Source: Stropharia rugosoannulata
Taxonomy: Eukaryota; Basidiomycota; Agaricomycetes; Agaricales; Strophariaceae
Assembly: GCA_028532985.1 (NCBI GenBank)
Contig: JANCIK010000001.1
Span: 496,001 to 560,000, forward strand
Direction of reading: 5' to 3'
DNA length: 64,000 bases
This document shows, piece by piece, positions 640 through 47,715 of the stretch. The notes beneath the pieces were generated by a model. That model saw only the letters and a program-made list of their open reading frames with translations, ran no database searches and was not told the origin of the DNA. Each line of letters begins with the position of its first letter. The stretch's first letter is position 1. A program made the position numbers and the translations under genes.

Positions 640-785
640 CTGTACACTGACTTACATACTTACCTTTGCACTGCCACACACTTACCTTTGCACCGCCACA
701 CACTGACCTACACTGACTAACACTGACCTTGCACTGACCGACACTGACCTTACACTGCTCCACTGCTGCACACTTACCTCCACAC
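640..785. repeat. Degenerate short tandem repeat (CACTGACCTTACACTG-like)
   Basis: Irregular tandem copies of a 9-16 base motif built from CACTGACC, CTTACCT and TGCAC. The array lies directly against the broken 3' end of the pol reading frame, so it may mark where the retroelement was truncated. Confidence 0.6.
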
Positions 786-1976: not shown

Positions 1977-2065
1977 GATTCAAGCTGCTTTAACTTGTGC
2001 AGCGTTTCTTTGAATTGCTGGATACATACCATTGGGGATTTGTGCGCCTGCCAGTGGCAGAGCGC

Positions 2066-11411: not shown

Positions 11412-11559
11412 TATTTATTTTCGATACTGTGCCACACTGGCAGAGGTGAGGCTTTGGTATGTCGACAGTACTTCGTCTCTTGGAAGCCTACCAGTTATAT
11501 AGTCATATAACGTCTTCTTATGACTCGTGTTAGTAAACTATGCAACTGTTTGCATCATA

Positions 11560-28609: not shown

Positions 28610-29824
28610 TCAAGATGCAAAGTTAATGACCTCGATCATGGTCCTGTCCCCATTATTGTACGCAGCAATGCAAAAATCTCCTTCAAATATAACCTGCCAG
28701 ATGCCGATTATACCTGTGATGAGATCGCGGACCAGTTTACCGTCCTTGATATTCCACAGTTTTAAATTGCCATCGGATCCACTGACGACCTTCTCGTCGT
28801 CGTGCTGCAGGCAAGTTATGGCTCCGGTATGGCGTAGTAAACTATGCTTTGGGGTGCCCGTGTCTGGATCCCAAACGCACACAGTGGCATCGGCTGAAGC
28901 GGAGACAAGGTACGATGGCGAGAGGCTGAGTAGGCCAACGAGGGAGGTATGTGCAGTGAGAGTATGGAGACACTCCCCGGTCGCGACGTTCCAGATGCGC
29001 ACCGTCTTGTCCATAGATCCGGAGTATGCCTGGTTACGCTTGAGATCTAGCAATACGGAATAAACTGTAGGGTAGATAGTATAAGTTAATTTCTTGTATT
29101 TTGTATTCTGAAATGTACCTTTGTCGGTGTGTCCGTGCAGCACATGCTTGCATTCGCCAGAAGTGAGGTCCCAAACCCTCACGGTGGTGTCGTAGCTCCC
29201 AGAAATGACTGTCTTGTCCTCGACAGCTAATCCGCGCACAGCAGCGTCATGGCCGGTCAAGGTGAATTTGTAATACGGGTTCCTCGTAGCATCCTGAAAA
29301 AGAAAACAAACTGAGACTGGCCTTGCAAGATTACGGTTTATTGCAGTTGCATCACCACCGCCTGCCGCATTCTTGACGAAACTGTCGAAGTCGGCCTCGC
29401 CGGGATTGGGTAGGGTCCATACTCGCATAGTGCTGTCACGGCTTCCAGAAACTATCAGTGGCCTGTCCGGCGCTTCACTGGAGGATGGATCAGGAACCAC
29501 AACAGAGAGACATCGCACGGTGGACTCATGGCCTTCAAATATGTGTGTGCACCGCCCATCATTCAAGTTCCATATCCTGACTGTTCGGTCCGTCGACCCG
29601 CTGACCAGCGTGTCTCCATGCACGACGAGAGCCCACACACCCCCGGTGTGCCCACTAAGGGTGGTTTGGAGCGCACCGGTGATGGGAGAGTATATGTGGA
29701 TGGAATGGTCGTCGGCGGCTGAGATAATTCGCCCGTTGGACAAGACGAGGCAGGTTACAACAGACGATGCGTGCGCAGGAAATGATATCCGGCTGGGGTT
29801 GTCGTTAGTGAACCATTTGTCCAT
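28610..29824 (-). CDS. Cdc4-like WD40 repeat protein without F-box, copy 3
   Basis: A 404-residue open frame of the same length as copy 1, starting MDKWFTNDNPSRISFPAH. It differs from copy 1 at a small number of positions, such as MDK for MAA at the N-terminus and LNDGRC for LNSGRC. The same in-frame 54-bp intron is present. It encodes the WD40 propeller of a Cdc4/Fbw7-type substrate receptor; I see no F-box in the 800 bases upstream. If translated it could bind substrates without recruiting Skp1, which is an inference. It lies head to head with the intact oxygenase gene. Confidence 0.87.
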   Translation of the reverse strand: MDKWFTNDNPSRISFPAHASSVVTCLVLSNGRIISAADDHSIHIYSPITGALQTTLSGHTGGVWALVVHGDTLVSGSTDRTVRIWNLNDGRCTHIFEGHESTVRCLSVVVPDPSSSEAPDRPLIVSGSRDSTMRVWTLPNPGEADFDSFVKNAAGGGDATAINRNLARPVSVCFLFQDATRNPYYKFTLTGHDAAVRGLAVEDKTVISGSYDTTVRVWDLTSGECKHVLHGHTDKGTFQNTKYKKLTYTIYPTVYSVLLDLKRNQAYSGSMDKTVRIWNVATGECLHTLTAHTSLVGLLSLSPSYLVSASADATVCVWDPDTGTPKHSLLRHTGAITCLQHDDEKVVSGSDGNLKLWNIKDGKLVRDLITGIIGIWQVIFEGDFCIAAYNNGDRTMIEVINFAS

Positions 29825-30646
29825 GATTTATTTTTTGATACTGTGCCACACTGGCAGAGGTGAGGCTTTGGTATGTCGACAGTACTTCGTCTCTTGGAAG
29901 CCTACCAGTTATATAGTCATATAACGTCTTCTTATGACTCGTGTTAGTAAACTATGCAACTGTTTGCATCATAAGGAGCTACGGCAGCGGTCCCGCCTGC
30001 GCTCATGTGATGCTGCCCCAACGTAATCATAACAATAGTGATAATATAGACTAGAGAAGTGTGCAACTAATGGGCTGCTTAACTGTCTTCCCAAGGGTCG
30101 ATATGACGTCGAACCTATTATCTACACGACCTTGTGGGCGCGTGTTTGAGTGATCCGCCCAATTTCAAATCTGTTGAATACTACTCAGCCTCACTTGGCA
30201 GGCAAGTTTTCATTAGCAAAGACCCAACTTCCGCTGGACTTACACATAGTGTATATGCATCCATATGCGCAAAATAAAATCCCTGTTTTTTGGGGATTAA
30301 TTGTACCTTACCATGAAACCAGATTTTTTGGGACTCCTAGCGAGCCATACGAGGCTCGGCACTTTCGGCTTATTAACCATTTCAAGCTCAGTTATCCAAG
30401 CTTGCCCAAGCCGCTCAGATTAATTAGCCGATTGCCGTCCCGCACCCGGCAAACGGAAACGGATCAAACTGAAGGCAAAGCGGAGTCTGGATTGGATTAC
30501 GCGCAGAGAATCGGCCCACCTCGGCATTCTGCGTTGGTAATTGTTCATTAAGACATCATCGCGCCATCTCGCACAATTCTGACAGCGAGTACGAGAAAGC
30601 CAGAGAAGAGGCATCTACGCCCTCGTCGTTATCTGATACAACCACC
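29825..30646. other. Divergent promoter region between WD40 copy 3 and the oxygenase
   Basis: About 820 bases between two divergently transcribed genes. The half next to WD40 matches the upstream region of copy 1 (to about 29977). Parts near 30148-30235 and 30605-30625 survive as relics in unit 1. No gene is recognised. Confidence 0.5.
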
Positions 30647-32112
30647 ATGTCTGCTCAAACAGCTCCAGCCGATTTCTCGTCCGTTCCTATTCTTGACTAC
30701 TCTCTCCTTGCCTCGCCTGCCACGCGGGAACAGTTCCTCTCACAACTACGACACGCCCTGATAAATGTCGGATTCATTTACCTCTCCAACCACCCAGTAA
30801 AGCAGACAAACATCGATTCGCTGCTCGGCTACATTCCCAAGCTATTCGCCCTTCCTCAAGATGCGAAGGACCAGATCCGCATGGCAAACTCTGAGCATTT
30901 CCTCGGATACTCTCGCTTCGGTGCAGAGTTCACCAAAGGCGCGGTGGACCAAAGGGAACATTTTGACTTTGCAACGCGCCATGTGTCGCGCTGGAAGCAG
31001 CCCGGAGACCCGGACCATTACCGTCTTTGGGGGCCACCGCAGGTGTGTGCACATATCTCGTTTCAATTCTGGCACGGTTGACTAATGTAATTGAAACGTC
31101 GACAGTGGCCGGACGAGAAGTTGATTCCGGGATTCAGAGATGTAATGGAGAGCTACCTTGAGCAAGTCGAGGCCCTGTCGAACACATTCACTTCCCTTGT
31201 AGCAGAAGCGTTTGGTCTTGGCCCCGATGGACTAGCAGAGTTCTTCGACACACCAGATCTCATGCAGCATAGGGGGAAGATTGTGAAGTATCCTGTAGTG
31301 CAAGGCTCTAACGACCAGGGGGTTGGTCCACATTACGACGCGGGATTCTTGACGTTCGTGAGTAATACATTCACCGCAGTTGTGGCCGACTTACTCATGA
31401 CTCATGATTTCTACAGTTATTACAAGCTTCTTCTCATCGAGGGCTACAAGTACAAAATCTGTCTGGGGAGTGGATAGACGCCCCTCCTATTCCCGGCACC
31501 TTTGTGATTAATATCGGCAAAGGTTGGTACTATCAGACTCGAGCTTGAATGGCCTATTTAATGTACTCACCCCGCAATTTATCCAGCACTCGAATTCGTC
31601 ACCGGTGGCCTTGCACGCGCTACATCGCACAGGGTGCTATCGCCAAAGGGCGACACTCCCCGCTATTCCGTCCCCTTCTTCCAAAACATCAGCCTTGATA
31701 CAAGACTAACTGAGCACATTCTTCAATGTGGGCATTTCCATGTTCTGAGCCACTACAATCCATACTAATCGAGCAACTCACGGTTAGTCCCTCCTGAAGT
31801 TCTTGCTCTGCGTGACACACGAGGACAGGTCGCCGCTACTGACTGTAATTTGTCTATTGAATACTATATTTTCCTGTGCTGATCGTCCCTCGCAGCTGTG
31901 AACTTCTCAGAGTTTGACCGGGAACCATCAGGCAAGGTGAACTTGATTGGGAGAGTCAAGTGCGTGTCAAGTGCTTTTCTTTTCTTAGGGGACCTCTATC
32001 TGACCATCTTGCTGCGCGTAGGAGCCATCCTGACGTGGCTGAGCGACATTATCCTGAACTATATAAAGAGATCTTTCCAAACGGCCACTCTGGCAAGGAA
32101 AGTGCATATTAG
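30647..32112 (+). CDS. 2-oxoglutarate/Fe(II)-dependent dioxygenase, isopenicillin N synthase-like
   Basis: Seven exons (30647-31042, 31106-31357, 31417-31522, 31587-31727, 31788-31844, 31896-31959, 32022-32112) give 368 residues with all phases consistent. The N-terminal DIOX_N part begins VPILDYSLLASPATREQF and includes HALINVGFIYLSNHPV. The 2OG-FeII oxygenase core has the iron ligands His208 and Asp210 (HYDAGF) and His266 (TSHRVLSP), with Arg277 in PRYSVPFF for 2-oxoglutarate. All catalytic residues are present. Members oxidise small molecules in primary or secondary metabolism; the substrate cannot be read from sequence. Small relics of this gene occur in tandem units 1 and 2. Confidence 0.93.
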
Positions 32113-32673: not shown

Positions 32674-33154
32674 ATGCACTTCAACTACTCGATCTTTGCA
32701 GTCACGGCGGCGTCGCTTTTACTAGCTTCCGCCTTGCCCCGCATCCAACTCCTAAAACGAGGTACGTAACTCGATTCCTTGTCAACGAGAAGCCACCGAT
32801 TGAACTTCACTTAAACGTGTATCTGCAGGAGCGTTGGATTTTAAATTAGGGAACTCTACAACGATGGAACCCGACCGAAGTACTATCGTCCAATATAGTA
32901 CGGCATTCAGTTCTTCTGAGTCCCAATCTACGGCGTTCAGTTCTTCCCAACCTCCGTCATTCAGTCCTTCCGAATCCACGGTGTTCAGTTCTTTCCAATC
33001 CACGTCGTTCAGTCCTTCCCAATCTACGACGTTCAGTTCTTCACAACCTCCGTTGTTCAGTCCTTCTCAGTCCACAGCGTTCAGTTCTTCCCAATCCACA
33101 GCGTTTTCTTCCCAACCGTCGGTGTTCAATCCTTCCCAATCCACAGCGTTTTAA
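32674..33154 (+). CDS. EPxR peptide P1: secreted peptide precursor with Ser/Phe-rich tandem repeats
   Basis: Two exons (32674-32761 and 32829-33154, phase-1 intron) give 137 residues. Residues 1-20 form a signal peptide (MHFNYSIFAVTAASLLLASA), followed by a short pro-segment ending in LLKR at residue 29, a Kex2-type site exactly at the splice junction. The second exon begins GALDFKLGNSTTMEPDRS, which carries the family motif, and continues with about ten copies of an ~8-residue repeat of the type TAFSSSQS / PSFSPSQS, encoded by a ~24-base minisatellite. The TAA stop interrupts further similar sequence: past it the same frame continues with repeat-like codons and two Cys residues for about 45 codons, as discussed in the findings. 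I do not recognise the family. Confidence 0.75.
32905..33154 (+). repeat. ~24-base coding minisatellite in P1
   Basis: Tandem copies of a word like ACGGCGTTCAGTTCTTCCCA, with 24-27-base spacing, encode the x-x-F-S-[SP]-S-Q-[SP] repeats. Copies alternate between SSSQ and SPSQ types. Confidence 0.8.
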
Positions 33155-33653
33155 TCTACGTTATTCGGTTCTTGCCAACCGACGACGAGCAGTGTTTCCC
33201 AGTCTACCGCGACCAATTCGTGCCAAGCTATTTCTAAAATAAAAGCTCGGGAAAAATTGTATACTTTTAATTAGATTATCAACTTACAAGTTCTGAAATA
33301 AAACTATGCATCTCCGTGGCCGGTGATACCGTGTTCTCTATATTGCCCTGGCTCTATATTCTTAGGTCCGCGACCTGAGAGGAAATCTCGCCCCGTTTGC
33401 CAGATTTAGGTATGTCGTCCTTCGTTGAAGACAGGGAAGCATATAGTGCTTCTGCAGGCACGCACCTGGGGTATCTCATCGAAAGCAAAATAAAAATAAA
33501 AATCATTGAAAGAGAAAAGATCATTGAAGGAGATTCTATAGCCTCGTCTCTCCTGCACTAAAAACATACTAGATTCTCAGTTAGGTACCAAACTATGTTT
33601 ATCATATATATACCTCCAACTACTACAGTCCTCCCTCAGAAGCACAGTCGAAA

Positions 33654-33875
33654 ATGCACTTCATCTATTCAATCTTTGCAGTTACGACGTTGATTTCACT
33701 AGCTTCCGCCTTGCCCGGCATACAACCTCTAAAGCGATGTAGGGGTATGTAACTTGATTCCTTATCAACGCGAAGTCGTTGAATTTAACTTACACGTGTA
33801 TCTGCAGGAACGATGGATTTTGAATTAGGGAACTCTACGACAATGGAACCCGCCCGAAGTTGTGCCATCGTCTGA
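33654..33875 (+). CDS. EPxR peptide P2: short paralogue of P1, repeat region cut off
   Basis: Exons 33654-33744 and 33808-33875 give 52 residues. Signal peptide MHFIYSIFAVTTLISLASA is followed by a KR site at residues 27-28. The second exon carries MDFELGNSTTMEPARS and stops at TGA (33873-33875). Downstream, degenerate repeats homologous to those of P1 continue to about 34076 and contain a further stop. P2 is therefore either a pseudogene or a shortened precursor like P4-P7, which also end soon after the motif. Confidence 0.65.
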
Positions 33876-34079
33876 CAATTTACTGCGTTCAGTTCTTCCC
33901 AATGAACGGCGTTCAGTCGGTCCCAACTTTTCACAGTGTTCTCTTCCCAACCTTCGGTGTTCAGTCCTTCCCAATTCACAATGTTTAAATCTACGGTATT
34001 CAACGGTTCTTGCTATCCGACGGCAAGCGTCGTCTCACAGTCTACCGCGACCGATACTTGCCAAGCTGTTTCCTAAATA

Positions 34080-34606
34080 AAAGCTCGGGAAAAAATGTAT
34101 ACCTTTAATTAGATTGTCAACTTAGTTCTTTTGAACTTCTTCATTAGTTAAATCAGTGATGTTGTGCGCGTTCGTGCGAACATCGTCGGAGCTTCAACCT
34201 TGAAGTTCGACGGCGGCCAGTTCTTATCGCTGTGACAGCCAGCGGCCCAGCGCAATAGTCAAGGATTCAGATGCATTTCTAGGAGATGGACGTGTGTCAT
34301 ACATACTCAGTTCACCAGAAAGATAAATCTTTGTTGGCTGGATTGCATCTATTAAATTATTGATCGCACGAAACATCTATGTCTACCTAGAGTGCTGCTA
34401 CACTGACAAAGTGTTTGGAAATGTTCCGAACAAGATACCTTGAAGTGATAGGAAGCTCAACCCCCTGACAGAACTAGAGCGCCGTATGATATATTACATA
34501 CCACTGAGCACTCAGACAGATAAAAAGCTCGACCAGACTCAACCGGCCTTCAAGACACTCAGCTTCAAGGGGAGTACTATTAAATACTTCAAGCTTCCAC
34601 ACCGCA
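34080..34606. other. Intergenic between P2 and P3
   Basis: About 530 bases without a recognised gene. A weak TATA-like TATTAAATA lies about 30 bases upstream of P3. Confidence 0.4.
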
Positions 34607-34844
34607 ATGCGCTGCATCTACTCGCCCGTTTTTGTGGTTATGGCATTACTAGGCCTTACGGCTGTAGCAGCTGTGCCGGTTGTCTCAAGTAAGTTAATTT
34701 GTTAAATATCTAAGGATCGTGAAAATAAATATTCTTCCAATAATCTAAGGCCCACTTTTCAGCTTTTTGAGGGTTGACACAAGCAAAGCTGAACCAATCC
34801 GATCAAATAATAGGCTGGAGACTCCGAAATCTTCTGCGAGCTGA
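34607..34844 (+). CDS. EPxR peptide P3
   Basis: Exons 34607-34688 and 34750-34844 give 58 residues. Signal peptide: MRCIYSPVFVVMALLGLTAV, then AAVPVVS. No dibasic site precedes the splice junction. The second exon reads SPLFSFLRVDTSKAEPIRS and ends PKSSAS. This model uses the acceptor ATCTAAG at 34749; the more pyrimidine-rich acceptor at 34762 would give a stop after two codons, so splice choice decides whether the gene is intact. It is closest to P6, which shares FLRV and EPIR. Confidence 0.6.
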
Positions 34845-35312
34845 ACCATTTTATAATGGTCCACATTCTGGGGAGTTGCACTACGCCCTAAGGCATATGT
34901 TATATGTAATAGTCAAGGATGAATAGTGATAATAGTGACATCAGCCGCATAGTATGATGTAACGGTCTACAATCTAAATGACACTGTCAATCATGTCACT
35001 CAACGACTTTTGTTCTAAATTTAGACAGCGCCCATGCGCGAACTTGAAAATTCTTTACGCAAGAGGCTAGCTAAATAGATCTCTAATGTCTCATGACCAG
35101 ATAGTTATTCGGATACAAGAATCAAACTGATAGACAGCCAGTGGGATGCATACTACGCTGTGCTTCATGACCCGTATTTTGATTGTACCATGCCACTCCA
35201 TTGTAATTGGGATTTCAGAGATTCGCAGCCTAGCAGTATATATAGCGAGAAGACTCACCTAGCCTCAGATAGACACAGAAACATCGCACAAAGCCTTTTA
35301 AGACAACTTGCA
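34845..35312. other. Upstream region of P4
   Basis: Contains words repeated upstream of P5: ACTCAACGACTTT with TCTAAATTTAG and ACAGCGCCCATG (34997-35038 against 36647-36693), and GATAGACAGCCAGTGGGATG (35131) against GATAGACAGACAGTGAGATG (36811). P4 and P5 are therefore tandem duplicates including their promoters. Confidence 0.6.
35235..35245 (+). promoter_or_regulatory. TATA box of P4
   Basis: AGTATATATAG about 75 bases upstream of the P4 ATG, at a distance matching that of the P5 TATA box. Confidence 0.55.
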
Positions 35313-35559
35313 ATGCGATTTCAATTTATTTGGCCATTATTCACTGCAATAATGGTGATACCTCTCCTATCCCGGGCCAGTGCAGCACCTGTACCACTTG
35401 TTAAACGCGGTATGTTGACATCTATTCCCTATGTTAGTCTAATAAAACTTATGGGCCTTGACCTTGACAGAAAAATTGGCGCCCTCTTTTCTACTGGACG
35501 GAAACGAACCCACTCGGTCCGAAACCAGTCAGGATGCGGCCAGTGGCCAGTCAGCCTAG
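35313..35559 (+). CDS. EPxR peptide P4
   Basis: Exons 35313-35409 and 35471-35559, phase-1 intron, 61 residues. Signal peptide MRFQFIWPLFTAIMVIPLLS, a small-residue cleavage region (RASAA), then PVPLVKR; the KR pair ends the last whole codon of exon 1. The predicted mature part is 29 residues: EKLAPSFLLDGNEPTRSETS followed by QDAASGQSA. It contains the family motif F-L-L-D-G-N-E-P-T-R. There is no Cys, so no disulfide-stabilised defensin-like fold is expected. Function unknown; a Kex2-processed secreted peptide is the simplest reading. Confidence 0.75.
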
Positions 35560-36430
35560 TGCATGACTCAAGTGTTGTGGAGCACAGAGACAAAAAAATC
35601 CAGAGAACATTGTAGCAGGCGTAGCCTAAGTTTACCATCGATTTGAAGTCATATCGAAATACCAGAAATTAATATGACCGCAATTGCATGACTGAAATAT
35701 TCGGAGAAAACAGAGGTATCTGAAGGGTAGAAATTTTACCACGATGGTTGATGCTTTTGCTTTCGACTCTTCCAGATGCTTCTATCGTCTCCGAGTCGCT
35801 AAAATAAATCAATATCTACGTTAAATTTCAATATATAGTATGCAAACTACTGGCTATAACTTTGATCAGCTTGTTCACATTGGCTTTCAATTACAAGTTT
35901 CCCGATGCGGAAGTGACAAGGCCCTCCTCAGTGGGTAATTTGAATCACTTCGCGGTCTATTAGAACCGTTCAAATTAAAAAATGCCACAACAATGGTACT
36001 CAAGTGTTAGAAACAGCTCGTCACTGTTGCTGAGATAGGGGCCTGGAAAGGGGGTGTACGGCACACTGCTGGTGTTGCAGGTGCAAGGGGTCGTCCAAAC
36101 AGATCGACTAACCGGCCATCCTGGTGTGGGAATGGACACAAAGCGCCTGGGCTCGGGCGTGCGAGGGAAGAATGTGTGTATTCTGGTCAAGGTCTAATTT
36201 AGGATACATCGTGATGGTAAGCTTTGTATGTACGTGTTAGCACCGGAAGTCCATGAACACGTGATATTCAACATCAAGTACTCATCGCAGCAAAAAGATC
36301 CGAAAATTCCAGAAGCATGAAACTAAGTGGTGTCTCTGACTGTTTTAACTTTTACCTGTCCCCGGATCATTGAAGGAATCAGACAAACAGAGAACGAGGT
36401 ATTACCCATTCCGGGCAGAGAGAAAAATCA

Positions 36431-36605
36431 GTGAGACGTGCGTATGGGTGAGAGTGGTGTGTGAGCCACTTTCACGCATTTGCCACGCATCCTCACGCAC
36501 TTGCACTTATCCACTGAGCTTCACGCATGACTCACGCACCTTCACTCACGCGCACGGCTCATGCACCTCTCACGAACTCTCACACATTCACGCACGGCTC
36601 ACTGC
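36431..36605. repeat. TCACGCA-type repeats with an inverted arm
   Basis: Many copies of TCACGCA/CTCACGCAC on the plus strand (36471-36605). They are preceded by reverse-complement words such as GTGAGACGTGCGTATGGGTG (36432-36451), so the tract could fold into a hairpin. Confidence 0.6.
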
Positions 36606-36929
36606 TTTTTCCTGTGCCCACCCATTCCAAATTTGTACTTAAAAACACTCAACGACTTTCGCTCTAAATTTAGCATATAGACAGCGCCCATGATGCATTC
36701 ATAATAAAATGATTTTGGTACAATATGATGATTACTCAAGAGAATAAGTTACCAAAATCAGGAGAGCCTGGGTAGACCTCTGGATAGTATTATTCCACAA
36801 AAGTACCCTGATAGACAGACAGTGAGATGCAGCGCGTCAACACGTCTAACTGAGCACCTTCTTGAAGATATTTTCCATGCTCTATAGCTCGCAGTGGGAG
36901 TTCAGAGCCAATTCATTCACTCTTGGCCC

Positions 36930-36940
36930 AGTATATATAC
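36930..36940 (+). promoter_or_regulatory. TATA box of P5
   Basis: AGTATATATAC about 75 bases upstream of the P5 ATG, within the block shared with P4. Confidence 0.55.
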
Positions 36941-37009
36941 TGGTAAAGGGTTTATAACGTGAAGGCAGGCATAGCCATACAGGTTCATAGAACTTTAATA
37001 CGACTTCTA

Positions 37010-37223
37010 ATGCAACTTCCCAGTTGGTCATTATTCACTATAATGATGGTGATACCTTTCCTCATTGGTGCAACACCCATACTTGATAAGCGTGGTACGT
37101 TTACCCTATGTCTCATGTGAGTATAGAAATGCTGAAAGGCTTGAATTTTTATCAGTGGCATGGGCGCCCGATTTCCTACTAGTAGGCAATGAACCCAATC
37201 GGGCTGAAGTCAGGCCCACTTAG
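37010..37223 (+). CDS. EPxR peptide P5
   Basis: Exons 37010-37094 and 37156-37223, 50 residues. Signal peptide MQLPSWSLFTIMMVIPFLIG, then ATPILDKR with the KR pair at the splice junction. The predicted mature peptide is 22 residues: VAWAPDFLLVGNEPNRAEVR ending PT. It shares APxFLLxGNEPxR with P4. Same intron phase and position as its neighbours. Confidence 0.75.
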
Positions 37224-37591
37224 GACCCAACTGCCCATTGAATTGGTCCAATGTAAGCAGCTTAATGCATGAGCATCGTCGAGTAGGTTAACTCATACTG
37301 CATGCCCATTCAGCAACTTCAGTGCTTTCGAGTTCCTTGTATTTTCCCAAGTTCGCTTTAGTAGACGTACCCATGTTCAAAATTGAACAAACGGCGATGA
37401 GTGCCCATGACACAATCAAGGTATCAATTACAGTAAGAAGATCCGAAAACCCCAGAATCATGAAACCAATGCCTCCGATTTTTTAAGCTATCCGACTCAT
37501 CAGACTGATGTATCGAGCACTCCGAAACCAGAGATTTATGCCATTCGATGCATTTCATGATACCGCAGTCTAATCTTCGAGCCATCTCGTC

Positions 37592-37600
37592 ATATATATA
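37592..37600 (+). promoter_or_regulatory. TATA box of P6
   Basis: ATATATATA about 115 bases upstream of the P6 ATG. Confidence 0.45.
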
Positions 37601-37711
37601 GAGAGAAATAATTTCCAACTTGCTACACATACACAGTCGTTCGTCGCTGATCTTTTATCATATATCAACCCTTGATCAACGTTCCGAAACGTTCAAACAC
37701 TCAACTCCCTG

Positions 37712-37947
37712 ATGCAATTTCTTATAAGTTGGCCATTATTTACGGTCACCACGGTCACATTACTTCACCTCATCAGTGCAATGCCCGCACTTGTTGAGCG
37801 AGGTGTGTTAATCATATCTGACCACATCTGTACAGAGAGACTAAGTACTTCAAATTTTCATTAGGATTAAAAGAACCAACTTTTCTCAGGGTGGTAGGCT
37901 CTGAACCCATTAGGGCCAGAACCACTCAGGATCCTACTGCCCCATAA
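37712..37947 (+). CDS. EPxR peptide P6
   Basis: Exons 37712-37802 and 37865-37947, 57 residues. Signal peptide MQFLISWPLFTVTTVTLLHL followed by ISAMPALVER. The processing site is ER rather than KR, so Kex2 cleavage is less certain. The second exon gives GLKEPTFLRVVGSEPIRART and then TQDPTAP, with the motif F-L-R-V-V-G-S-E-P-I-R. The upstream SWPLFTV resembles the signal peptides of P4 and P5. Confidence 0.72.
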
Positions 37948-38309
37948 ATCTGTAGAGGCAAACTACTAGTACACCCAGTGACAGACATGGTGTTTTCCTA
38001 GATTAAAACTAATTAGTTGCGCTTGACTCGTGCTCGCCATTGGCACAAGTCAACTGAAGTACTATGAATAGCGTACCAGTTGCCAAGTGTAACTGATTAT
38101 TGTGGCACGCCAACTACACCTCAATGACACGGACTTCAGACGCAATATAAGAACTTCATACTCATGCTTTCGGAAGCAGCCACTTATATTAGACAACACA
38201 TATTCTGGAAATTAAAAATAAATAAGACTGCCACTAGCTGCTTGATAATAGCAAAATTAACTACAGGGATAAGAACCGAAATTTTTCATGAGGGGAAACA
38301 GGCCTATCA

Positions 38310-39515
38310 TTATGCAGCGACTCCTCTGTTGTACGTATCCATAAAGTTTGATGTGGATTCATTATTCAAAGTTTTGTTGGTCGTGTCGCTCATACCTCCT
38401 GTAGTCATCGAAGTCGCCGGAAAGCTCTTCACATCGTTGAAGCGTATAGTGCTTGTCATATGCTTAGTCCTTTCCCCGAGCGAGGTTCCCATGGCCACTC
38501 GAACAAGGATAACAGTGGGGGTGATCCCCTTTCAGCAAACAAGCATGTCAATTGTTGTTACCAGCAGGGAAAATGGGCGACTGGCACTTACATAGATCAT
38601 AGTAATGGGCCCATTGATGGAATTAAACCCTGTGTTCTGTAGACCAAAGAGCACAGTCCAGACAATTTGCCCAACAAAGGTGAATATACCCGATTCGACA
38701 AGGATCGTAATCAGTGGAAGCAAGGCTTGCGAGTAGTCGAGCGTGCCCTCGCGTTTGAGTTCGTAATGCGTCAACACCAGTCTGAGGACGAGTAGCCCTG
38801 ATACTACGAAGTTAACGAATGCCGAGATGCTGAACGAAGCGACTCCAAGGGGGAAAAACCAGACAGGCGGTTGTCCGGCAAGGCCGATTCGAATCAGTTC
38901 AATCGTCAGGCCCAGGCATGTTGCTAGAAACACTATTAAAACAGCACAACTTAACGGAAGTGCGGACTTACAGAACGAAGCAAGCGCAAGTACTGTAGGG
39001 AAGATTATGAACAAAGGGTTACGATTCCACATGATCCAGCATCGATAAATCTGGACAGTTGTTCAGACAAATTGACAGTGGCATACGAAGTCGACACTCA
39101 CCAGGATGCTCTGAGTGGTGATATCGGTGAACGTGTAGATCATAGAAGTCGTGATGTTTATGTTCTGTACAACGTTTGCTGCTGTCGGTCCATTGAGACG
39201 GAACTGTTGTACGCACTGTCAATTTAGCTGAAAAAAAAGGCCTACAAAGACTCACAATGGTAATAAACTGCTGAGTGAAGTCTAGACAGATGTATCCTGT
39301 GCATAGCACAAATAGGAATATCAAGGCATGGGTGAGACGGTTACTCCCAGAGGACTTCTTCTGAATGTTCAAGAAGAGAGCAAATATGACGCAGTAGATG
39401 CCTTTATGAGGATTAGATGGTGAACGATTAAGTGCGCACATAGATCCTTACCATAGAATATCCCTTCCAAGACCGTACCAAGGAAGATTGCCTCGTTACT
39501 GCTGAGGGCAGTCAT
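38310..39515 (-). CDS. Basidiomycete multi-pass (about 7 TM) membrane protein
   Basis: Six exons (39452-39515, 39256-39401, 39102-39215, 38972-39050, 38592-38932, 38310-38528) give 320 residues. The start is MTALSSNEAIFLGTVLEGIF. Hydrophobic segments alternate with polar loops: GIYCVIFALFLNI, ALIFLFVLCTGYICLDF, IFPTVLALASFLFLATCLGL, a segment around VASFSISAFVNFVVSGLLV, and LITILVESGIFTFVGQIVW. The motifs RCWIMWNRN and the closing GITPTVILVRVAMG are typical of an agaricomycete-specific family of uncharacterised 7-TM proteins. The function is unknown; GPCR-like topology is suggested but no pheromone receptor (Ste3) signature is present. The tail is Ser/Thr/Asn-rich and cytosolic if topology is GPCR-like. 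Confidence 0.82.
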
Positions 39516-40466
39516 CGTTAGCAGTGTGAGAGGCAAATGATCCCACCACTAAATTTGCTATATAAACCGCCTGTATTTCTTCAAGGATTTAACGGTGATT
39601 GGGGGGTATCTGGTGACAAGCACCCCTGGCAAAGTCCTCCTCCACGGACTTCCACGCCAACATAGTCTTTATCCATGCGATGATGGGCCCTGTACATGTA
39701 GCAAAATGTTTGTTGGACTTCTGTTGAACGGATGTTCCTATCAACGCGGTTGCTTCGTAACACTGTATTTGCAGTCGATTGACAATCCTGTGCAAGCCCT
39801 GTGTCACCTGTGTCATGGGGGACAGAGCACTTGCGAATAGAGCAACGTTTATTGGTTGACGAGAGAGAAGTTTGCTATATCTGGCAATGACAATGAAAGA
39901 ATTTTCTGCAATTCCCAGGCAGGATTAAAATTTCAAGGGGTAGTAATATGGCATTTGTGGTGCACGTACTACTGTTGTACAACTTGAAGCTTGTAGCCAG
40001 TCAACCAACAGTTAACCATGCAGTTTACGGTGGTATCATCTTGAAGCTTGAAGTTACTAAGGCTCCCTCGAGTCGTTAAACAACTCAACTCACCTGAGTC
40101 GAGCAGTAGGGTTGAGCCAAGGTCGAGCGCTTGAGCTTGAGCCTCCAACTTGGGCTGAGCTGGCACGTCCGGCGCTCCGTCGGTCCGTCTCGGGCTTGCA
40201 TGCCGTGACATCGCGGTGAAGAAGTGTGTCAGTTCAAACTTCAAATTGATCCCACTGCTCTCCAAACGGTTGACCTCTCTTATCTTATTGCTGCCATGAG
40301 TCCGGATGTTAGCATACCAAATTCATTTCTGTTCGGCGCTCGATTATGGCGAAGACACATTGGCTAGACAGTAAGTACTAGGCAATCGCCAGCAGCTGTC
40401 CAACTCTGCGTCGTCATTCTTAACTTGGAACATCATAGATATTAATTGGCATTCTTCTGACACAAA
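39516..40466. other. Intergenic, no gene recognised
   Basis: Short frames on both strands overlap each other here without recognisable motifs or splice continuity. Confidence 0.4.
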
Positions 40467-41182
40467 TCATGTGGACTCTCCGTCATCCATGAAGGGTATA
40501 CCTTCCCACCCTAGCGTATTCTCGATAACGAATGTTCGCACGTGCTTCCAATTTCTGCAGATGTGCGTAATTCCAAACCCAGATGCTGGCATGGAGTTGT
40601 TCTGTAGAGTCGAGACCGGAACGAGCGCAGAGTCTGCTCTGCATAGGATGCTTTGCCGGATAAATTGAAAGCAGTGATTATCGTGGCCGACTTTCGAGCG
40701 CAGAATGGTGGGGTCTGTGACAAGACCATCTCTGGCCACGCTGTACTCGAAGCGAATAGCGTTGATGCAATGGAGCTGGTGGTAGGCTGCAATGCCAAAC
40801 GCGCGACCTTTAGGTCCCAAGCGTACAAACCCATGGTCTGCAGGGATGGTGGCTGCCCAAGCAGTGTCGTTCTCGAGTGAGAAGACATCGTTCTTTTGAA
40901 TGACCATTGAGACGGTCTCAAAGTATCCGGGAAGCCGCTCCAAATATGGGTTGTCAACTAATAATTCGTTCAGCAAGCCAGCTCCTTCGTATTACAATGT
41001 TCTTCAGGCTCACTGTTCGTGTCATGGCCAGTATCAATCGAATCCAAACTTCCTAAGAGCGTACGCTGAATTATTAACAAGTAAACATTAGCTAAACAAA
41101 GGGTGAAAGATACGAGAACAAGCGGGGATATGCTGAAGAATTCTGTCTTCATTTTACTTGTGGTGTACCCCGGAGCACCCAT
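40467..41182 (-). CDS. UstYa-like oxidase (DUF3328), both HxxHC motifs intact
   Basis: Two exons (41014-41182, 40467-40957; intron with gtgagc donor) give 219 residues. The start may instead be at the second Met (MKTEFF). One membrane segment (about residues 16-40, SPLVLVSFTLCLANVYLLI) anchors it as a type II protein with a lumenal catalytic part. The DUF3328 signature is present twice: HQLHC at residues 116-120, and HDNHC at 148-152 followed by FIRQSILC. The family includes UstYa/UstYb of ustiloxin and the cyclochlorotine CctO-type oxidases, which catalyse oxidative cyclisation, hydroxylation or chlorination of peptides. It lies within the EPxR peptide region and is the best candidate modifying enzyme there; this link is inferred. 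Confidence 0.88.
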
Positions 41183-41685
41183 ACCTGCATGCCTTTATGA
41201 GGGGTATAAGAATGCTTCCCGATAATATGAGTGCGCGCATCTAGATCTTGTTAAATATTAAGATTCCTGTTTGAAATCGTATCAACAAGACCCCCAAGTT
41301 GGTCCCAAGCCGCAGCACACGACACACTTGTATTTATATTTAGTGACATGTCGTTATCATTTGCCGCAGTGGGCGGCGTTAAATACACATCACAGCTGAT
41401 AGAAGCTCTTATATAGCTCCCATCTGGGACTCGACAACTCTGGGAGCTTTATCATTGGTCATTATAGGTACGGGACTTGTACTGTACTGTACTTCCACTA
41501 TGATAGCCGACGAGGGGGATTTCTTCATGATGAACTCCTCTGCGTCGTTTCAATGAGTTGTATATAAGTGTAAATGAACGGCTGCGAGTTGAAAGTACCT
41601 TTCAGTTGTAGCTGGCTTCGCACGAAGTAGAACTTGTACTCTTTTAAGAAATTTGTTTAACCGTTCAAACGCAAAACATCTACAG
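41183..41685. other. Intergenic between the two UstYa-like genes
   Basis: Two TATA-like boxes on the plus strand (TTATATAG near 41410, GTATATAAGTG near 41551) precede no recognisable plus-strand gene. A degenerate EPxR gene was looked for here and not found. Confidence 0.4.
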
Positions 41686-42307
41686 TCACGTTAATAACGA
41701 AATTTCTGATTCCAATCTATTCCAGTCTCTGCAGCGGTGCAGAACGCCCAATCCTTTAGTTCCAGGGGTTATGGTGCCATCCTCCGTGGTCTCAAGTTTT
41801 GTAGGCTCAAGTGATATGTCTGTATGACACATCAGGTGTTGTCGGAGCTGTTCTATGCATACTTGGGCATCGGCGTAAAACTGGTCTGCGAGTTTGGGAC
41901 GGTCTGCGTGGTAGCTCAGGTATGCAACTCGGACTATGTCGAGGCAGTAGAGCTGCTGGTGCATAGATATGATGTATTTCTCGTCGGAGTGAGGATCGAG
42001 TTTGAATATGGGAGGGTTGGAATAGGGTTCCCATTCCTTATCCGATTCTATGTGAAATCCACCGACGTTGTTAAATTCAAGTGCTACTTTTTCTGTGTCA
42101 TTCCATAAAAGCTCCCCGGGGTGCACTGTGAGCTTTCCTAGAGATTACAACTCTGTGAGTCTCGCCAATATTTTACAGCCACTCAAACGACATACCATCC
42201 TTTTCCTTTTGGTTGTGGTACGTATTTACCGTTCTGAAAGATAGAATCAAGTTGAAAATGGATGCACAGATTGCTGCACCAAGTACTAGCTGTGCAGCGG
42301 TAGGCAT
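41686..42307 (-). CDS. UstYa-like protein (DUF3328) with altered catalytic motifs
   Basis: Two exons (42196-42307, 41686-42137) give 187 residues. Residues ~4-25 form a membrane anchor (AAQLVLGAAICASIFNLILS). The lumenal part contains DUF3328 landmarks (HPGELLWND, EWEPYSNPP, IEQLRQHLMCHTDISLEP, LHRCRDWNRLE). The first HxxHC motif reads HQQLYC (H97, C102) and the second reads ADAQVC, so the paired histidines seen in the neighbour are lost. It may be catalytically different or act as a partner; known UstYa/UstYb systems use two family members. Transcribed in the same direction as the intact copy, about 500 bases upstream of it. Confidence 0.82.
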
Positions 42308-42779
42308 CAGGGAGGTGCTTGGCCGGTTAGTAACTGTAGTCTGAGTACAGGTACTAGTCTTTAATCTTCAACGGGTTAAAAATAGCACATTGAACACGAT
42401 ATTGGCACCGTCATGTTCCCGGGCCTCCATCAGACTTGGAAGTATGAGAAAGATCTGTACGAATCTATTGATGCTCAATTATTCTACCGGACTATCGGAC
42501 ACACGTATTTAATGTGAACTACATACCGTGAATTGATGGACATTCCAGGCCGGTCCCAATTCATGTCCGCCCAAGATTGACAGCCCTGACAGAAGCATAC
42601 ACATGGTATTTTTTGCCGAAACGTCTCTTGGTTATGTATGAAAACGATTGTGGCATTTTGCAAGAATATAAGGGGTACGAGCGCTGCCTGCCCCGGGCCT
42701 ATGAATAACATAATTATAATTGGATTTTGTGCATATTAAGTACCCACACTCCTTACTAGGACGTGCCCGTTCACGCAAG
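42308..42779. other. Divergent intergenic region
   Basis: Lies between the minus-strand UstYa-like gene and a plus-strand UstYa-like fragment. A 75-codon minus-strand frame (42484-42711) has no recognisable features. Confidence 0.35.
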
Positions 42780-43137
42780 ATGTCTAGCAAATATCAAAAG
42801 CTGTCGCAAGCGGACGACTTGGACACTGTTCAGCCTGTAACGACGAAACACAAGGCGGCCAGCTACACTATCAGCAGAGGCGCTTTTATCTCTCTAATCG
42901 TCTGCATTGTCTTGAACGCCGTCCTTACAGCGACAAGTATCCACTACTCCCTGAAGATATCCAAAGCCTTTGAACAACGCGACCCAGATACTCATAGTTT
43001 GCGGCGGATAGACCCTTTCACTGGAGACTATGTACCTGTGCCTTCAGCATCCAGTGAGTGTAGCTGAGCTCAGTAATTTGTTCGGTCATTTAAATTGTAT
43101 ACTATCTCCAGAACTTTCCGGCGGAGAACTCTATTGA
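42780..43137 (+). CDS. Short membrane-anchored protein resembling the N-terminus of a UstYa-like protein
   Basis: Exons 42780-43053 and 43112-43137 give 99 residues. A ~35-residue polar N-terminus (MSSKYQKLSQADDLDTVQPV) is followed by a membrane segment (AFISLIVCIVLNAVLTATSI), then a short lumenal stretch with RRIDPFTGDYVPVPS and an early stop. This is the layout of the cytosolic tail, anchor and pre-catalytic part of DUF3328 proteins, with the catalytic part missing. It may be a truncated relic or a genuine small membrane protein. Confidence 0.5.
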
Positions 43138-43396
43138 ATTTCAGTAGCGTGTAAAGGGAAACTGTATCAATACGACCTGTACCCGCCGTAGTAGAAACCA
43201 ATCCTCATTGAATGTAATATTAACTGATGTAAGAAAACTGCACGTAAAACATATTATTTTCTAAATATTCAAGTCGTTCAGAGCCTTCATACATCTGTGT
43301 CATCTATATTGTAATGGATCAGATGGTAAGCACCGTGTAGTGAATCCGTTTTGGATGATTGCATAAGGCTTCGGGTAGCTATGGTAGTTGCAACAA
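43138..43396. other. Short intergenic stretch
   Basis: AT-rich 3' flank shared by two convergent genes; nothing further seen. Confidence 0.35.
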
Positions 43397-44391
43397 TTAC
43401 CTGCGTAGTTCAAGTTTATCAGTAATAGATAACGAGGAATTCCATTGGGGTTTACCGACATTAACAGCCAACAACGGCAGACAGGTAAAGTTGAACCATA
43501 GGCTCGACGACAGGTAAAATGAAAGTAACGTAACTTGAGTTATGACAATAGGTAGTGCCGAATCAACGACAATCGACATCACAAGCACCCTGGACCTTTG
43601 TAGGGTATCCTTCACAGGAGCGCTTTCGGCATCTGCTTCATATCTGAAGCTTACGAACAGCTTCAGGGTTATCAGGGATGACGTCAATACATCCACTGCC
43701 AATGACAGGAAGAACGAGAGAATAACAACTGTAAAAAACCAATCCGGCAACGGGTACCATCCTTTGAAGTCGGCTATCTTCTGCAGGTCTATAACGTTGA
43801 ACATAACTTTGTTTTTCGTCAGGGTCGTAGTGCCATGCCCATTGGGATGCGGCCTTACCAAATGATGTCAGGGACAATGTTATGGGTCCAGCCATAAGCC
43901 AGTAGTTGCGATCCCATAAGGACCAGCAGCGGCGTATCTTTAATAAAGCGACGTTAGATTGGATAAGTACATGTTTATTCTCATGCTTACCAGGAAGAGA
44001 TGTACAACTAGCCTAATGGATGTGAACGTTTCACTAGCTAAAATGTTCAGACACAAGTCCAGTGTACTCGTATCGCCGGATAAGAACTGATAACAAAATT
44101 CTAACTCGTTCAACTTCTGAATTCTCGCATGAATTGATTACCTGGCTCGAAAACTGGGCAATATTGACCAAGACAGCTACCGTGAGTAGACCACAAAGAA
44201 GGTTCATAGGCCACGTCACGGTTCTGCAGGGCGATGTCGCGTGTACATTTCGATAACGAATGAATGTAATACAGTATAGACCTGTGATGGGTTATTAGAG
44301 AGAACATATGCAAAATAATGGTTGTGGGGAAGCAGATACCATAGAGTGTGGTCCCAGCCAGAGTCCCCAATCCTGCCTCTAATTCAATCAT
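43397..44391 (-). CDS. Second basidiomycete multi-pass membrane protein
   Basis: Five exons (44282-44391, 44142-44223, 43991-44086, 43859-43937, 43397-43788) give 252 residues with consistent phases. Segments: GTLAGTTLYGICFPTTIILH, WPMNLLCGLLTVAVLVNIAQ, LVVHLFLIRRCWSLWDRNYW, LMAGPITLSLTSF, WFFTVVILSFFLSLAVDVLT, VVDSALPIVITQVTLLSFYL. The motif RRCWSLWDRNYW and the early TTLYGI place it in the same broad uncharacterised basidiomycete 7-TM type as the gene at 38310, although the two are diverged. The last ~20 residues after the final TM segment look unusual, so the 3' splice model is less certain. Function unknown. Confidence 0.7.
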
Positions 44392-44903
44392 GTCAACTGC
44401 TGCTAGGTACTCATACCATAGATTGGGAGTTAGATCTGATATAACAGTAACCGTTTCTGCAGTCTCCCTTGACTAAGGACTAAAGCGAGCAAGTCAGGTA
44501 AGAGTTGTAGCACGGAAGAGAAAGATGCCATTTCAAACATGTCACCCAGTGGCATAAATGATCCGTGCTTACATGACATTGCGCTCGCCTGCTCACGGGG
44601 CAACAAATCAATAGTACGTGACATTGACAATGAAGTTTGAACGTCCTATATTTACTGAAACCTTATCTTATCGGAATAGCCACATGCTTCGTTCGAGTGA
44701 CAGGGAAGATAGATCATATGGTGATGGATGTCGAGGCCAACCAAGTATTTCAAAGGGCTCGAGCTGCGAAATATTAATGTAGCACTCGTACATTCGACTG
44801 AAGAACGTAATGTAAGTCTGTGATAGAGTAGGCTTATTTGACATGTTGAACAGTACCCTACAGTACCTAGTAATACTGAAACGCCAACTCGAAGACGGCC
44901 ACA
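44392..44903. other. Intergenic, no gene recognised
   Basis: Minus-strand frames at 44430-44630 and 44668-44928 overlap the flanks of neighbouring genes and show no family features. Confidence 0.35.
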
Positions 44904-45960
44904 TCATGTAACGGTCTTCCCATCCCATATCATCATGTTGTTATTAAATGTACCGAATGGTGAGGGCCTGTCAGCACTCCCGACTACTCTGAATCCGAGG
45001 TTGATGTAGAAAGAAACCTATATTTAGATAGTCTTAATCAGTCATAGATTCCCATCTAAGAGGCCAAGCTCAAGTGATGATAGGCTTACGTTCTCTGTGG
45101 TAATTGCATTCAGAGCTACAATCTGCTTCCCTTTCTTTGCCTATTTGGGTGTTAAAAGGTCTCAGGTACACTCAACGCGGAGCAGGAATATAGAATTAGA
45201 CTTACCTTCATGCAGATATCTTGCATGATTGCACTTGCATAACCCTTTCTCCGCTCGTTTTCTGGAGTACCAAGGGAGAGTATCCACCAGCTGTCCGTAA
45301 CCTGCATAAAAACGACTGAGGTATTTCTTACGGATGTACATATAACAATACGCCTACCGCCTGTTGACCAATAGTATCCTCAACAAACTTCTTGCTAAGA
45401 GGCCTATTCTGTTTGAAGTTTAATTCAGCGTCGGGTTCTGACATCGTACCACTCAAGTACTTACTACTTCATCTAGCCATTTCTTTGTCTCTTGAGACAG
45501 CTTCGCGAAGAATTCTTCCGCTCCGAGTGCACGTTGAGCTTCACTTTCAAATTATTCAGAAAGAGAACAATCCCGAGGCATGCGTTAATACCTTCCCAGA
45601 AAATCAACGCCAGGTCCAAAGCATATAGCAACAGAGAGGATTCTCTCTGTCTGTGTATTCTGGCAAACAGTAATTGTCCCTTCCAAGGCAGCCGCTCGCA
45701 CAACGAGGGAAAAAAGTTCGGTTTTAAGCTCGCTTGTTCCTCCAGTCATAGCATTTGTTAAAACATCTTACAAAACGGGTATTAATAGGAGTGGGTTGTG
45801 AATTGGGGTACGAGCCTCTCACCGTCGTCAAAGGCGACTCGAAGTATGTCGACGATAACTTGTATCTGACTATCTAGAATGGTGAGGCTTCAACATCTAT
45901 GTGCTCGTTCGGCAACATACCAGAAGGGTGGTTGAGAGTGATGATTTTGGTTTGACCCAT
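44904..45960 (-). CDS. GNAT-family N-acetyltransferase
   Basis: Eight small exons (45921-45960, 45823-45873, 45592-45766, 45465-45543, 45358-45408, 45206-45301, 45090-45140, 44904-45017) give 218 residues with all phases closing. The start reads MGQTKIITLNHPSDSQIQ. The acetyl-CoA binding signature is LGTPENERRKGYASAIM (motif A, R-R-x-G-Y-A), followed by IVALNAITTEN and VSFYINLGFRVVGS, the usual C-terminal motif of fungal GNAT proteins. It transfers an acetyl group from acetyl-CoA to an amine; the acceptor is unknown. The first exon is short and its boundary is the least certain. It lies inside the peptide region, which may be coincidental. Confidence 0.8.
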
Positions 45961-46654
45961 ACTTGTATGTCAGGTCCAAGTCAGACAATGGTAGAGCAAG
46001 TTGAGAAAGAGTGCTTCTCGGGATGTTGGGCCCGCCACCCGTTGCCGTTGGATTACCGTCGTTCGTCCGAACTGCGATTCCATACTTCGTGGGAATATAA
46101 AAACCAGAATAGTTCATATCACGTTTCGAGTTGGTTTCGGGACTTATGAGCGCACGACTTCCAGCGGCAACGACCGTAATAACGACAACCGCCCATCCTC
46201 GATCAGTCAGATCCAGGCTTCTGCATTCCACATCACTTCTTTGTCTCTGACCGCACTATCTAATTATTTTGAGCTTGTATTGTGCTGTTATCATTCACGG
46301 GAATTTCATACTTGTTCAAGGAGACCTGAGGGACCCATCACTTGATAATCACAATGCACGACAAGTGTACGGAACTTCTTCGATGCCCCCTGCCCACATG
46401 ATGACCTTCGATCCATATACTTGCCCAGGGCACAAGTAAAAAAGGCGACATCTCACTATCATCAAGGACAAGCCTGAGATATCTAAACCATCCGTCTTAA
46501 TGCCACTCTGCGTGCCACAGAGGGGAACGTCAAGTAGAGTATTTCAATCTCTCATGGCCTGTACATGTAGCATGAGTTAGGTATATATTGTGACTCTAAC
46601 AACGAAACTCTATCCACTTCACAAGTAACCAGAACTTCTTCTGATATCATCAGA
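45961..46654. other. Intergenic between GNAT gene and P7
   Basis: A 113-codon minus-strand frame (45890-46231) overlaps the 5' end of the GNAT gene and has no recognisable domain. A TATA box for P7 (GTATATATTG, 46581-46590) lies about 70 bases upstream of its ATG. Confidence 0.4.
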
Positions 46655-46870
46655 ATGCGTGTCGTTTATCTCTCCCTTCTTGCTGTCACGATTATATTCA
46701 AAGCGGCCATGGCAATTCCCAGCACAGAGATTCAACTTCGAGGTTTATTTGATCAAAATATTCAAAGGCTTCTGCTAACTTAGTCTTTGCGTTCTTGCCT
46801 ATTAGGCGCAGAGGAAGCCGCGAGTTTTAAGCTATCAGACTCAATGAAATCAGAGCCCAGTCGAACATAA
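46655..46870 (+). CDS. EPxR peptide P7
   Basis: Exons 46655-46742 and 46806-46870, 50 residues. Signal peptide MRVVYLSLLAVTIIFKAAMA, then IPSTEIQLR with a single Arg at the splice junction. The second exon reads GAEEAASFKLSDSMKSEPSR and ends in T. The motif spacing (F-K-L-x6-E-P-x-R) matches P1 and P2 rather than P4-P6. It lies about 8.7 kb from P6, on the other side of the UstYa-like genes. Confidence 0.7.
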
Positions 46871-47499
46871 GCTAACGGAGAGTAGTTAAAGGCGAGTCTT
46901 ATCACTTGTAAAAGAAAACTGACTCGTCGTGAAGCTGATAGCATACATGTGTAGCACAGATTAAAGTGTCAGAAGTTCCGGATAGAATCTTGCGCATACC
47001 TCCCACCGCCTCGCAGTGGGGATCATTGATATCTCACTGGAAACAATAAAACATAAATAAATGTAAATTTATTTTGTAAATAATACATCAGCTGCGTGTC
47101 ATTCCAGAAAATATTGGAAGTTCTTACTTCTGGTATCGACCAGATTGATCAATTATTGTTTTAAGTCTTGAAGCTCCCAAACTTAAAACTAGCGAATCCG
47201 TATGCCGATTAACTATGTAAGATCCGATGAATGGCAAATGTTACGTTAACTCAAGGCCGTCCATATCTAGCTCCAGATACGAGATAAACTGCCAGAACCA
47301 AAAAGGGGACGAATGCTTACCTAGCATACTTCTGAGCGCATGGCATCATGCATTATGACTTTCAATGATGTTCAGTCAATTTTGAGATGCCGGCAAATAT
47401 ATATATAATAGGAGAGCAGCATCGTAAGGAGTGAGAACACATCACTTTGGGTACTTCTTCACTTACTCTTCACCTTTTGAACCAGCCGAGCATTGAGAG
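46871..47499. other. Intergenic between P7 and P8
   Basis: AT-rich; a TATA tract (AAATATATATATAATAGG, about 47395-47412) lies about 100 bases upstream of P8. Confidence 0.4.
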
Positions 47500-47715
47500 A
47501 TGAAGTTAAATTTCAAAGTTCCTTCCGCAATCGTCACAATAGCTCTTTGTCTTTCCTTTGCCATACTCGCAAATGCAAATAGTAGTAGAATATCTCACTT
47601 CTATGTTACATCCTTGTGACTAACTTATCTCATCACAGTGCCTGCAAGCTTCCGTTTAGTGAACTCGCAGTTGGATGAACCCAATAGAGCAAAGGATACC
47701 CTGCCAGTAAACTAA
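47500..47715 (+). CDS. EPxR peptide P8
   Basis: Exons 47500-47581 and 47639-47715, 52 residues. Signal peptide MKLNFKVPSAIVTIALCLSF followed by AILANAN. Two alternative donors three bases apart (gtagta, gtagaa) keep the same phase. The second exon gives PASFRLVNSQLDEPNRAKDT and ends LPVN. No dibasic site is present before the motif, so any processing would depend on signal peptidase alone or other proteases. Confidence 0.65.

Follow-up and report, generated by a model that had tools for sequence, protein, structure and literature searches.

Dikaritins such as the ustiloxins, phomopsins, asperipin-2a and victorin are the closest described counterparts of the locus considered here, an array of small secreted-peptide genes sharing a Glu-Pro-x-Arg (EPxR) motif in Stropharia rugosoannulata. 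The array lies in a stretch of 64,000 nucleotides (the window; assembly GCA_028532985.1, contig JANCIK010000001.1, C1:496001-560000 of the 48-Mb genome), and, as judged from sequence, its genes probably encode the precursors of a ribosomally made, UstYa-modified family of secreted peptides. It has been reported that known dikaritin precursors contain multiple repeated cores set between Kex2 sites, that Tyr is cross-linked in the best-known cases and that the named members come from Ascomycota (PMC12048977, PMC9769878, PMC7329392), while UstY homologues participate in the oxidative cyclisation of these precursors (PMC12048977). The present locus resembles them in having signal-peptide precursors near UstYa/DUF3328 genes, two UstYa genes per cluster and a Kex2-type Lys-Arg (KR) site, here in half of the precursors. 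It differs in that there is a single core per gene, with many genes and no repeats, Phe stands in place of Tyr, a conserved EPxR follows the presumed core, and one of the two UstYa proteins has lost its copper motifs. The genes are not filed under ordinary dikaritins, repeated cores being absent, and the pattern of one core per gene and many genes, unlike the repeated cores of known dikaritins, is best read as a variant form of clusters for UstYa-type ribosomally synthesised and post-translationally modified peptides (RiPPs). In repeat sequences near DUF3328 genes, Tyr is present in 65.6%, so that a third are without it (PMC7329392).

Other described systems share single features with this locus. 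The KEPs (Kex2-processed repeat proteins) of Agaricomycetes are likewise secreted precursors with basic cleavage sites; repeat precursors in this class of fungi are treated in PMC9769878, where cleavage after a single Arg is also known. KEP mining used annotated proteins that contain three or more repeats, each of at least eight residues, between dibasic sites (PMC7329392), and EPxR precursors, which have no such repeats, would therefore be invisible to that survey; assignment of the family to the KEPs was rejected, as no dibasic-bounded repeats occur in its 14 sequences. From lichens, UstY clusters have been described that lack conserved repeats and may encode just one core peptide (PMC12048977). 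Among titles and abstract openings, no report of single-core UstYa precursors in basidiomycetes was found, a search of incomplete coverage that is not proof of there being none.

The DUF3328 copper enzymes CctR, ApnU and AprY have the HxxHC(x)nHxxHC motif and the N-terminal hydrophobic helix that are also found in UstYa-1 of the present locus. Cyclochlorotine is a peptide made without the ribosome. CctR acts on this cyclic peptide as a homodimer, and the double HxxHC motif is its copper site (PMC12435403); in contrast, an intact and a degenerate DUF3328 member are here conserved side by side with ribosomal precursors.

The EPxR precursor genes

An earlier note on this DNA had described a family of eight small genes encoding a signal peptide, one phase-1 intron and a second exon with the EPxR motif. 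Splice enumeration and a mechanical two-exon scan recovered the predicted start codons, exons, introns and EPxR second exons of all eight where they had been claimed (coordinates are those of the window):

32674-33154, plus strand: precursor gene P1, exons 32674-32761 and 32829-33154, with an extra Ser/Phe-rich repeat tail after EPDRS
33654-33875, plus strand: precursor gene P2, exons 33654-33744 and 33808-33875, a tandem duplicate of P1 with C-terminal CAIV
34607-34844, plus strand: precursor gene P3, exons 34607-34688 and 34750-34844, junction without a basic site
35313-35559, plus strand: precursor gene P4, exons 35313-35409 and 35471-35559, KR site
37010-37223, plus strand: precursor gene P5, exons 37010-37094 and 37156-37223, KR site
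37712-37947, plus strand: precursor gene P6, exons 37712-37802 and 37865-37947, Glu-Arg (ER) site
46655-46870, plus strand: precursor gene P7, exons 46655-46742 and 46806-46870, poor donor GTTTAT
47500-47715, plus strand: precursor gene P8, exons 47500-47581 and 47639-47715, poor donor, with an alternative donor 3 bases on

Each gene opens with a hydrophobic signal-peptide-like stretch and has a single phase-1 intron of 57–67 nt, and its short second exon encodes F-x(5-8)-E-P-x-R-[STA]. A strict donor rule recovers six of the eight. The best model of P3 uses the donor at 34689 (GTAAGT) and the acceptor ending at 34749 (CTAAG); the donor of P8 is GTAGTA or GTAGAA, either being possible, and the models of P7 and P8 are weaker because their donors are poor. 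The description of the junction as mostly a KR, ER or R site was fair: KR is found in P1, P2, P4 and P5, ER in P6 and LR in P7, with none in P3 and P8. In P2, the KR sits just ahead of a further CR. The tail of P1 (32921-33150) is built of 24-base tandem repeats, and the protein encoded by its duplicate P2 is without it. The CAIV end of P2 (33864-33875) is a CaaX-like tetrapeptide, which occurs in none of the other 13 precursors.

The observation was thus confirmed and widened to 14 genes at three loci, with eight on C1, five on C3 (Q1–Q5) and one on C7 (R1). The F, E, P and R occur without exception in the 14 precursors, the F-to-E spacing is exactly eight residues in 11, and in these 11 the position F+5 is always S or T, while the remaining positions between F and E are mostly highly variable. 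In each of the six members on C3 and C7, the distance from F to E is this exact eight-residue spacing; the scans that found them had no F in the motif, and other loose candidates from those scans were not counted. In an alignment of 13 sequences, a Pro shortly after the signal peptide is invariant. As judged by a Kyte-Doolittle proxy, all 14 have a hydrophobic N-terminal start, a feature that the scans required. Basidiomycete CaaX pheromone precursors have a C-terminal CaaX box and no signal peptide, and this assignment was rejected given the hydrophobic starts and a CaaX-like end in P2 alone.

It could be argued that the open frames are fortuitous and are not genes at all. In favour of this, five of the 14 family introns have donors outside the strict rule, and the introns of paralogue pairs are about as conserved as the exons, with an intron identity of 86–94% in five of six pairs and 63% in P4/P5; in Q1/R1, the second exon, at 67% identity, even falls below the intron, at 88%. 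However, the chance controls make this explanation very improbable. When 264 contiguous kb of the contig were scanned, the strict settings returned P1–P6 only and the loose settings nine rows, namely the eight genes with P3 counted twice; 12 altered motifs used as a control gave no strict match each and two loose matches in total. A relaxed scan found exactly P1–P8 within the window and no match in 267,829 bases of other DNA from this genome, five other UstYa loci included (stretch L001 was excluded from this control because it overlaps the window), while 30 first-order Markov sequences of 64 kb gave a single match. A TATA-like hexamer lies within 150 bases upstream of all 14 family members, among which duplicates are not independent, compared with 73 of 437 signal-peptide-like ATGs in flanking DNA. 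Nonsynonymous divergence (dN) is below synonymous divergence (dS) in six of six paralogue pairs, with a ratio of about 0.4–0.8 to which no significance test is attached, and the Q3–Q5 exons are free of indels, whereas gaps are present in both flanks.

Searches for relatives with precursor alignments as queries found none among 5.8 billion proteins, at E-values up to 10 and up to 1. Such a search needs shared five-residue words, and the null result is therefore weak evidence of absence; agaric proteins are in the database searched, so precursors elsewhere are either unannotated, too diverged for the word filter or absent. The statement that no named family has this pattern agrees with these searches, within the same limited sensitivity. 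Searches of the genome with single precursor proteins were too insensitive, as query P6 missed P4 and P5. A whole-genome DNA pattern was discarded, with 18 matches against 39 for its reversed control; one of its matches lies near a weak UstYa match on C8, where the DNA reads like another gene and no scan match was found around it.

UstYa genes within the array and at related loci

Two UstYa (DUF3328) genes, both above the Pfam cut-off, sit between P6 and P7. Neither these genes nor the other two clusters had been part of the earlier finding. The genes between P6 and P7 are as follows:

38313-39548, minus strand: seven-transmembrane (7TM)-like membrane protein gene, several exons, between P6 and UstYa-1; the pieces scanned have no Pfam match; counterpart in all three clusters
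40467-41152, minus strand: UstYa-1, a membrane-anchored DUF3328 protein with HQLHC and HDNHC, intron 41013-40958, Pfam UstYa E=5.6e-22
41686-42307, minus strand: UstYa-2, a DUF3328 protein, exons 42307-42196 and 42137-41686, with degenerate HQQLYC and DAQVC, Pfam UstYa E=1.2e-13
42780-43137, plus strand: small single-transmembrane (single-TM) protein gene, about 99 amino acids, two exons read by eye, between UstYa-2 and P7
43400-44291, minus strand: second 7TM-like gene, pieces only, between UstYa-2 and P7
44907-45749, minus strand: GNAT-like acetyltransferase gene, several exons with approximate ends, between UstYa-2 and P7; C3 counterpart; Pfam score just below the gathering cut-off

The unspliced UstYa open reading frames (ORFs) on the minus strand are 40470-40991 (Pfam E=2.1e-20) and 41689-42144 (E=5.9e-14), and the spliced models give 209 residues for UstYa-1 and 187 for UstYa-2, each with an N-terminal hydrophobic stretch. 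The double HxxHC motif is complete in UstYa-1 and not in UstYa-2. UstYa-1 has 55 homologues at E-values up to 0.001; those named belong to Galerina, Phlegmacium, Cyathus, Infundibulicybe, Mycena, Gymnopilus and some other Agaricomycetes, with Galerina marginata, Phlegmacium glaucopus, Cyathus striatus and Infundibulicybe gibba among the sources of close relatives. Across the UstYa-1 ORF and the 33 of these 55 that were aligned, the double motif keeps its four His and two Cys without exception. UstYa-2 is likely a DUF3328 pseudo-enzyme, as its sequence has lost most of the copper-ligand histidines, yet it is conserved between anciently diverged clusters. Comparison of UstYa-1 with solved structures gave a lone match, a ribosomal protein at E=0.4, which was taken as chance.

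A family search of the genome gave at least 24 UstYa matches. On C3, at 4.02–4.03 Mb, a cluster contains five EPxR precursors (Q1 and Q2 in stretch L031, Q3–Q5 in L035), and no additional EPxR genes were found in the 5 kb beyond it (L036). Counterparts of the 7TM-like, UstYa-1, UstYa-2, small single-TM and GNAT-like genes are all present there and are collinear with C1, in inverted orientation; in the genome search, the small single-TM gene was matched only in these two clusters. Between C1 and C3, the amino-acid identity over aligned codons is 81% for UstYa-1, 66% for UstYa-2, 42% for the small single-TM protein and 68% for the 7TM-like protein. The proportion of synonymous differences (pS) is 0.66–0.85, near or past saturation, against a nonsynonymous proportion (pN) of 0.13–0.36, with 0.13 for UstYa-1 and 0.22 for UstYa-2. 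These proportions, to which no significance test is attached, have the pattern of purifying selection, also for the degenerate UstYa-2, and with synonymous sites near or past saturation and pN low, the F...EPxR segment has therefore survived a very long divergence.

The third locus was reached solely through UstYa-1. A genome search with this protein gave a 53-residue match on C7 of 56% identity, outside the list of 24, and the 8 kb around it were then found to hold the fourteenth precursor, R1, a paralogue of Q1. At C7, the C3 cluster is repeated in shrunken, decayed and collinear form; the 7TM-like gene of this copy is well preserved, aligning with that of C3 over 1,452 positions at 83% DNA identity. 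In contrast, five other UstYa loci (L029, a weak match, and L030, L032, L033 and L034; 8–9.9 kb each) hold no convincing EPxR precursor, so that the association stands at three of three loci with UstYa-1-type sequence versus none of five others, five further UstYa loci, two on C12 and one each at C8:104 kb, C3:197-209 kb and C8:1.865 Mb, lying outside this count. A search for different small-peptide families at L030, L032, L033 and L034 gave one unconvincing candidate and no repeated blocks.

These loci bear on the possibility that the EPxR products are unmodified small secreted effector or defence peptides, with the UstYa block as a chance neighbour or serving another substrate. A small, secreted, fast-evolving family with tandem duplication would suit such a role. 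However, the association recurs at three loci, synonymous divergence between two of them, C1 and C3, is near or past saturation, and there is no convincing member at the five other UstYa loci and none in the 267,829 other bases, and so this explanation is improbable.

Several neighbouring features of the window were also recorded. An ORF at 30473-31078 with a DIOX_N (2OG-Fe dioxygenase) domain lies just upstream of P1; this ORF and the GST and SDR genes flanking the array were left out of the cluster, as they have no convincing counterparts in C3 4019501-4034500. Positions 9564-29978 hold a large tandem repeat of about 9-kb blocks in two to three copies of 92–98% identity, with WD40-repeat ORFs at 10200-11414 and 28613-29827, and positions 777-6007 on the minus strand hold retroelement pieces (reverse transcriptase, aspartyl protease and CCHC knuckle).

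Proposed modification route and competing explanations

The three options raised by the earlier note (RiPP precursors, signalling peptides or effectors) fared differently. The RiPP option has strong genomic support, from the pair of UstYa genes within the array and from the same association at two further loci; signalling is possible, with a 7TM-like gene in three clusters; nothing observed favours a host effector. In the proposed route, the signal peptide would take each precursor into the endoplasmic reticulum, where UstYa-1, predicted to be membrane-anchored and lumenal and having both copper motifs, would probably pair with the motif-poor UstYa-2 as a non-catalytic or altered partner. UstYa-1 would then recognise the conserved F...[S/T]...E-P-x-R segment and oxidise or cross-link a residue in or near F...EPxR, for which the invariant Phe is the obvious aromatic candidate. 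A Kex2-like protease cutting at KR or R close to the exon junction would free the peptide, which would then be secreted, and diversity would arise from many small single-core genes rather than from repeats within one precursor. We infer that UstYa-1 acts on the EPxR peptides, and likewise the residue changed, the step at which cleavage falls and what the product does; for products of the dikaritin-type class, defence is a usual role. EPxR itself may be a recognition part rather than the core, as it follows a variable stretch and resembles a recognition follower.

A number of findings weigh against UstYa modification of these peptides. Co-clustering alone does not prove the pairing of substrate and enzyme. 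The dN/dS of the precursor pairs is about 0.4–0.8, and the similar conservation of introns and exons in paralogue pairs speaks against a simple coding signal. A basic site ahead of the exon junction is KR in seven of the 14 precursors, a single R in four and absent in three, and a dibasic pair after EPxR occurs in one only (Q1). The peptides have no conserved Tyr, whereas the ustiloxin, asperipin and phomopsin cross-links use Tyr; after the junction, it is present only in P1 and Q3. EPxR occurs once in every precursor, without dibasic-bounded repeats. The C3 copy of UstYa-1 (C3:4030269-4030775) contains a single in-frame TAG towards the 3′ end, which may be an intron, an error or the sign of a lost gene, and UstYa-1 at C7 is a fragment only. 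Tyrosinase and methyltransferase genes did not turn up among the 30 scanned of 235 window ORFs of at least 75 codons. In the loosest scans, stray candidates appeared at L030 (F-x6-EPKR-I with a 117-nt intron, and QPVR) and at L032 (EPPK); these were judged to be chance, and in none of them do spacing, tail residue and intron size all match the family.

An alternative use of the same genes would be signalling, in which linear peptides released by Kex2 are secreted and sensed, for example by the 7TM-like protein, while the UstYa genes take part in modifying or maturing the signal, or are there incidentally. The 7TM-like gene is kept in three of three clusters and is the best-preserved gene of the decayed C7 copy, KR sites are found in seven of the 14 precursors, and P2, alone, ends in the CaaX-like CAIV. 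However, nothing links this 7TM family, which is very common in Agaricomycetes, to peptide sensing; a conserved block with two UstYa genes better suits modification; the segments between the anchors vary greatly, unlike one ligand; and the CaaX-like end is missing in 13 of the 14 precursors. On balance, signalling is an unlikely explanation, and modification by UstYa-1 is the reading retained here. It draws on the gene structure, the motif, the co-clustering at three loci, the ancient divergence with conserved enzymes and motif, and dN below dS, all of which are observations made on sequence.

Significance for UstYa genes in mushrooms

It has been reported that Pleurotus ostreatus has 16 UstYa-like genes (PMC8893723), and that 103 of 1,680 basidiomycete KEP genes lie near DUF3328 genes, a survey that suggested that cyclisation might hardly occur there (PMC7329392). 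The presence of peptide genes beside genes for enzymes of the copper cross-linking type suggests an overlooked mushroom route to modified peptides. If the EPxR genes are substrates, the missing partners of UstYa enzymes may be small split genes skipped by annotation and by repeat-based mining; the EPxR motif would then be a direct means of finding such genes, and the conserved intact and degenerate DUF3328 pair would serve for studying substrate choice by copper enzymes. More broadly, it is about an even chance that mushrooms have their own UstYa RiPP branch, in which F-x4-[S/T]-x3-E-P-x-R recruits a copper enzyme and a catalytically dead partner and in which diversity is generated by gene duplication, not by internal repeats; such a branch would have escaped notice because its precursors are very small, split by an intron, limited to one core and in most cases not annotated. 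If true, it would account for many UstYa genes of Agaricomycetes that have no known substrate.

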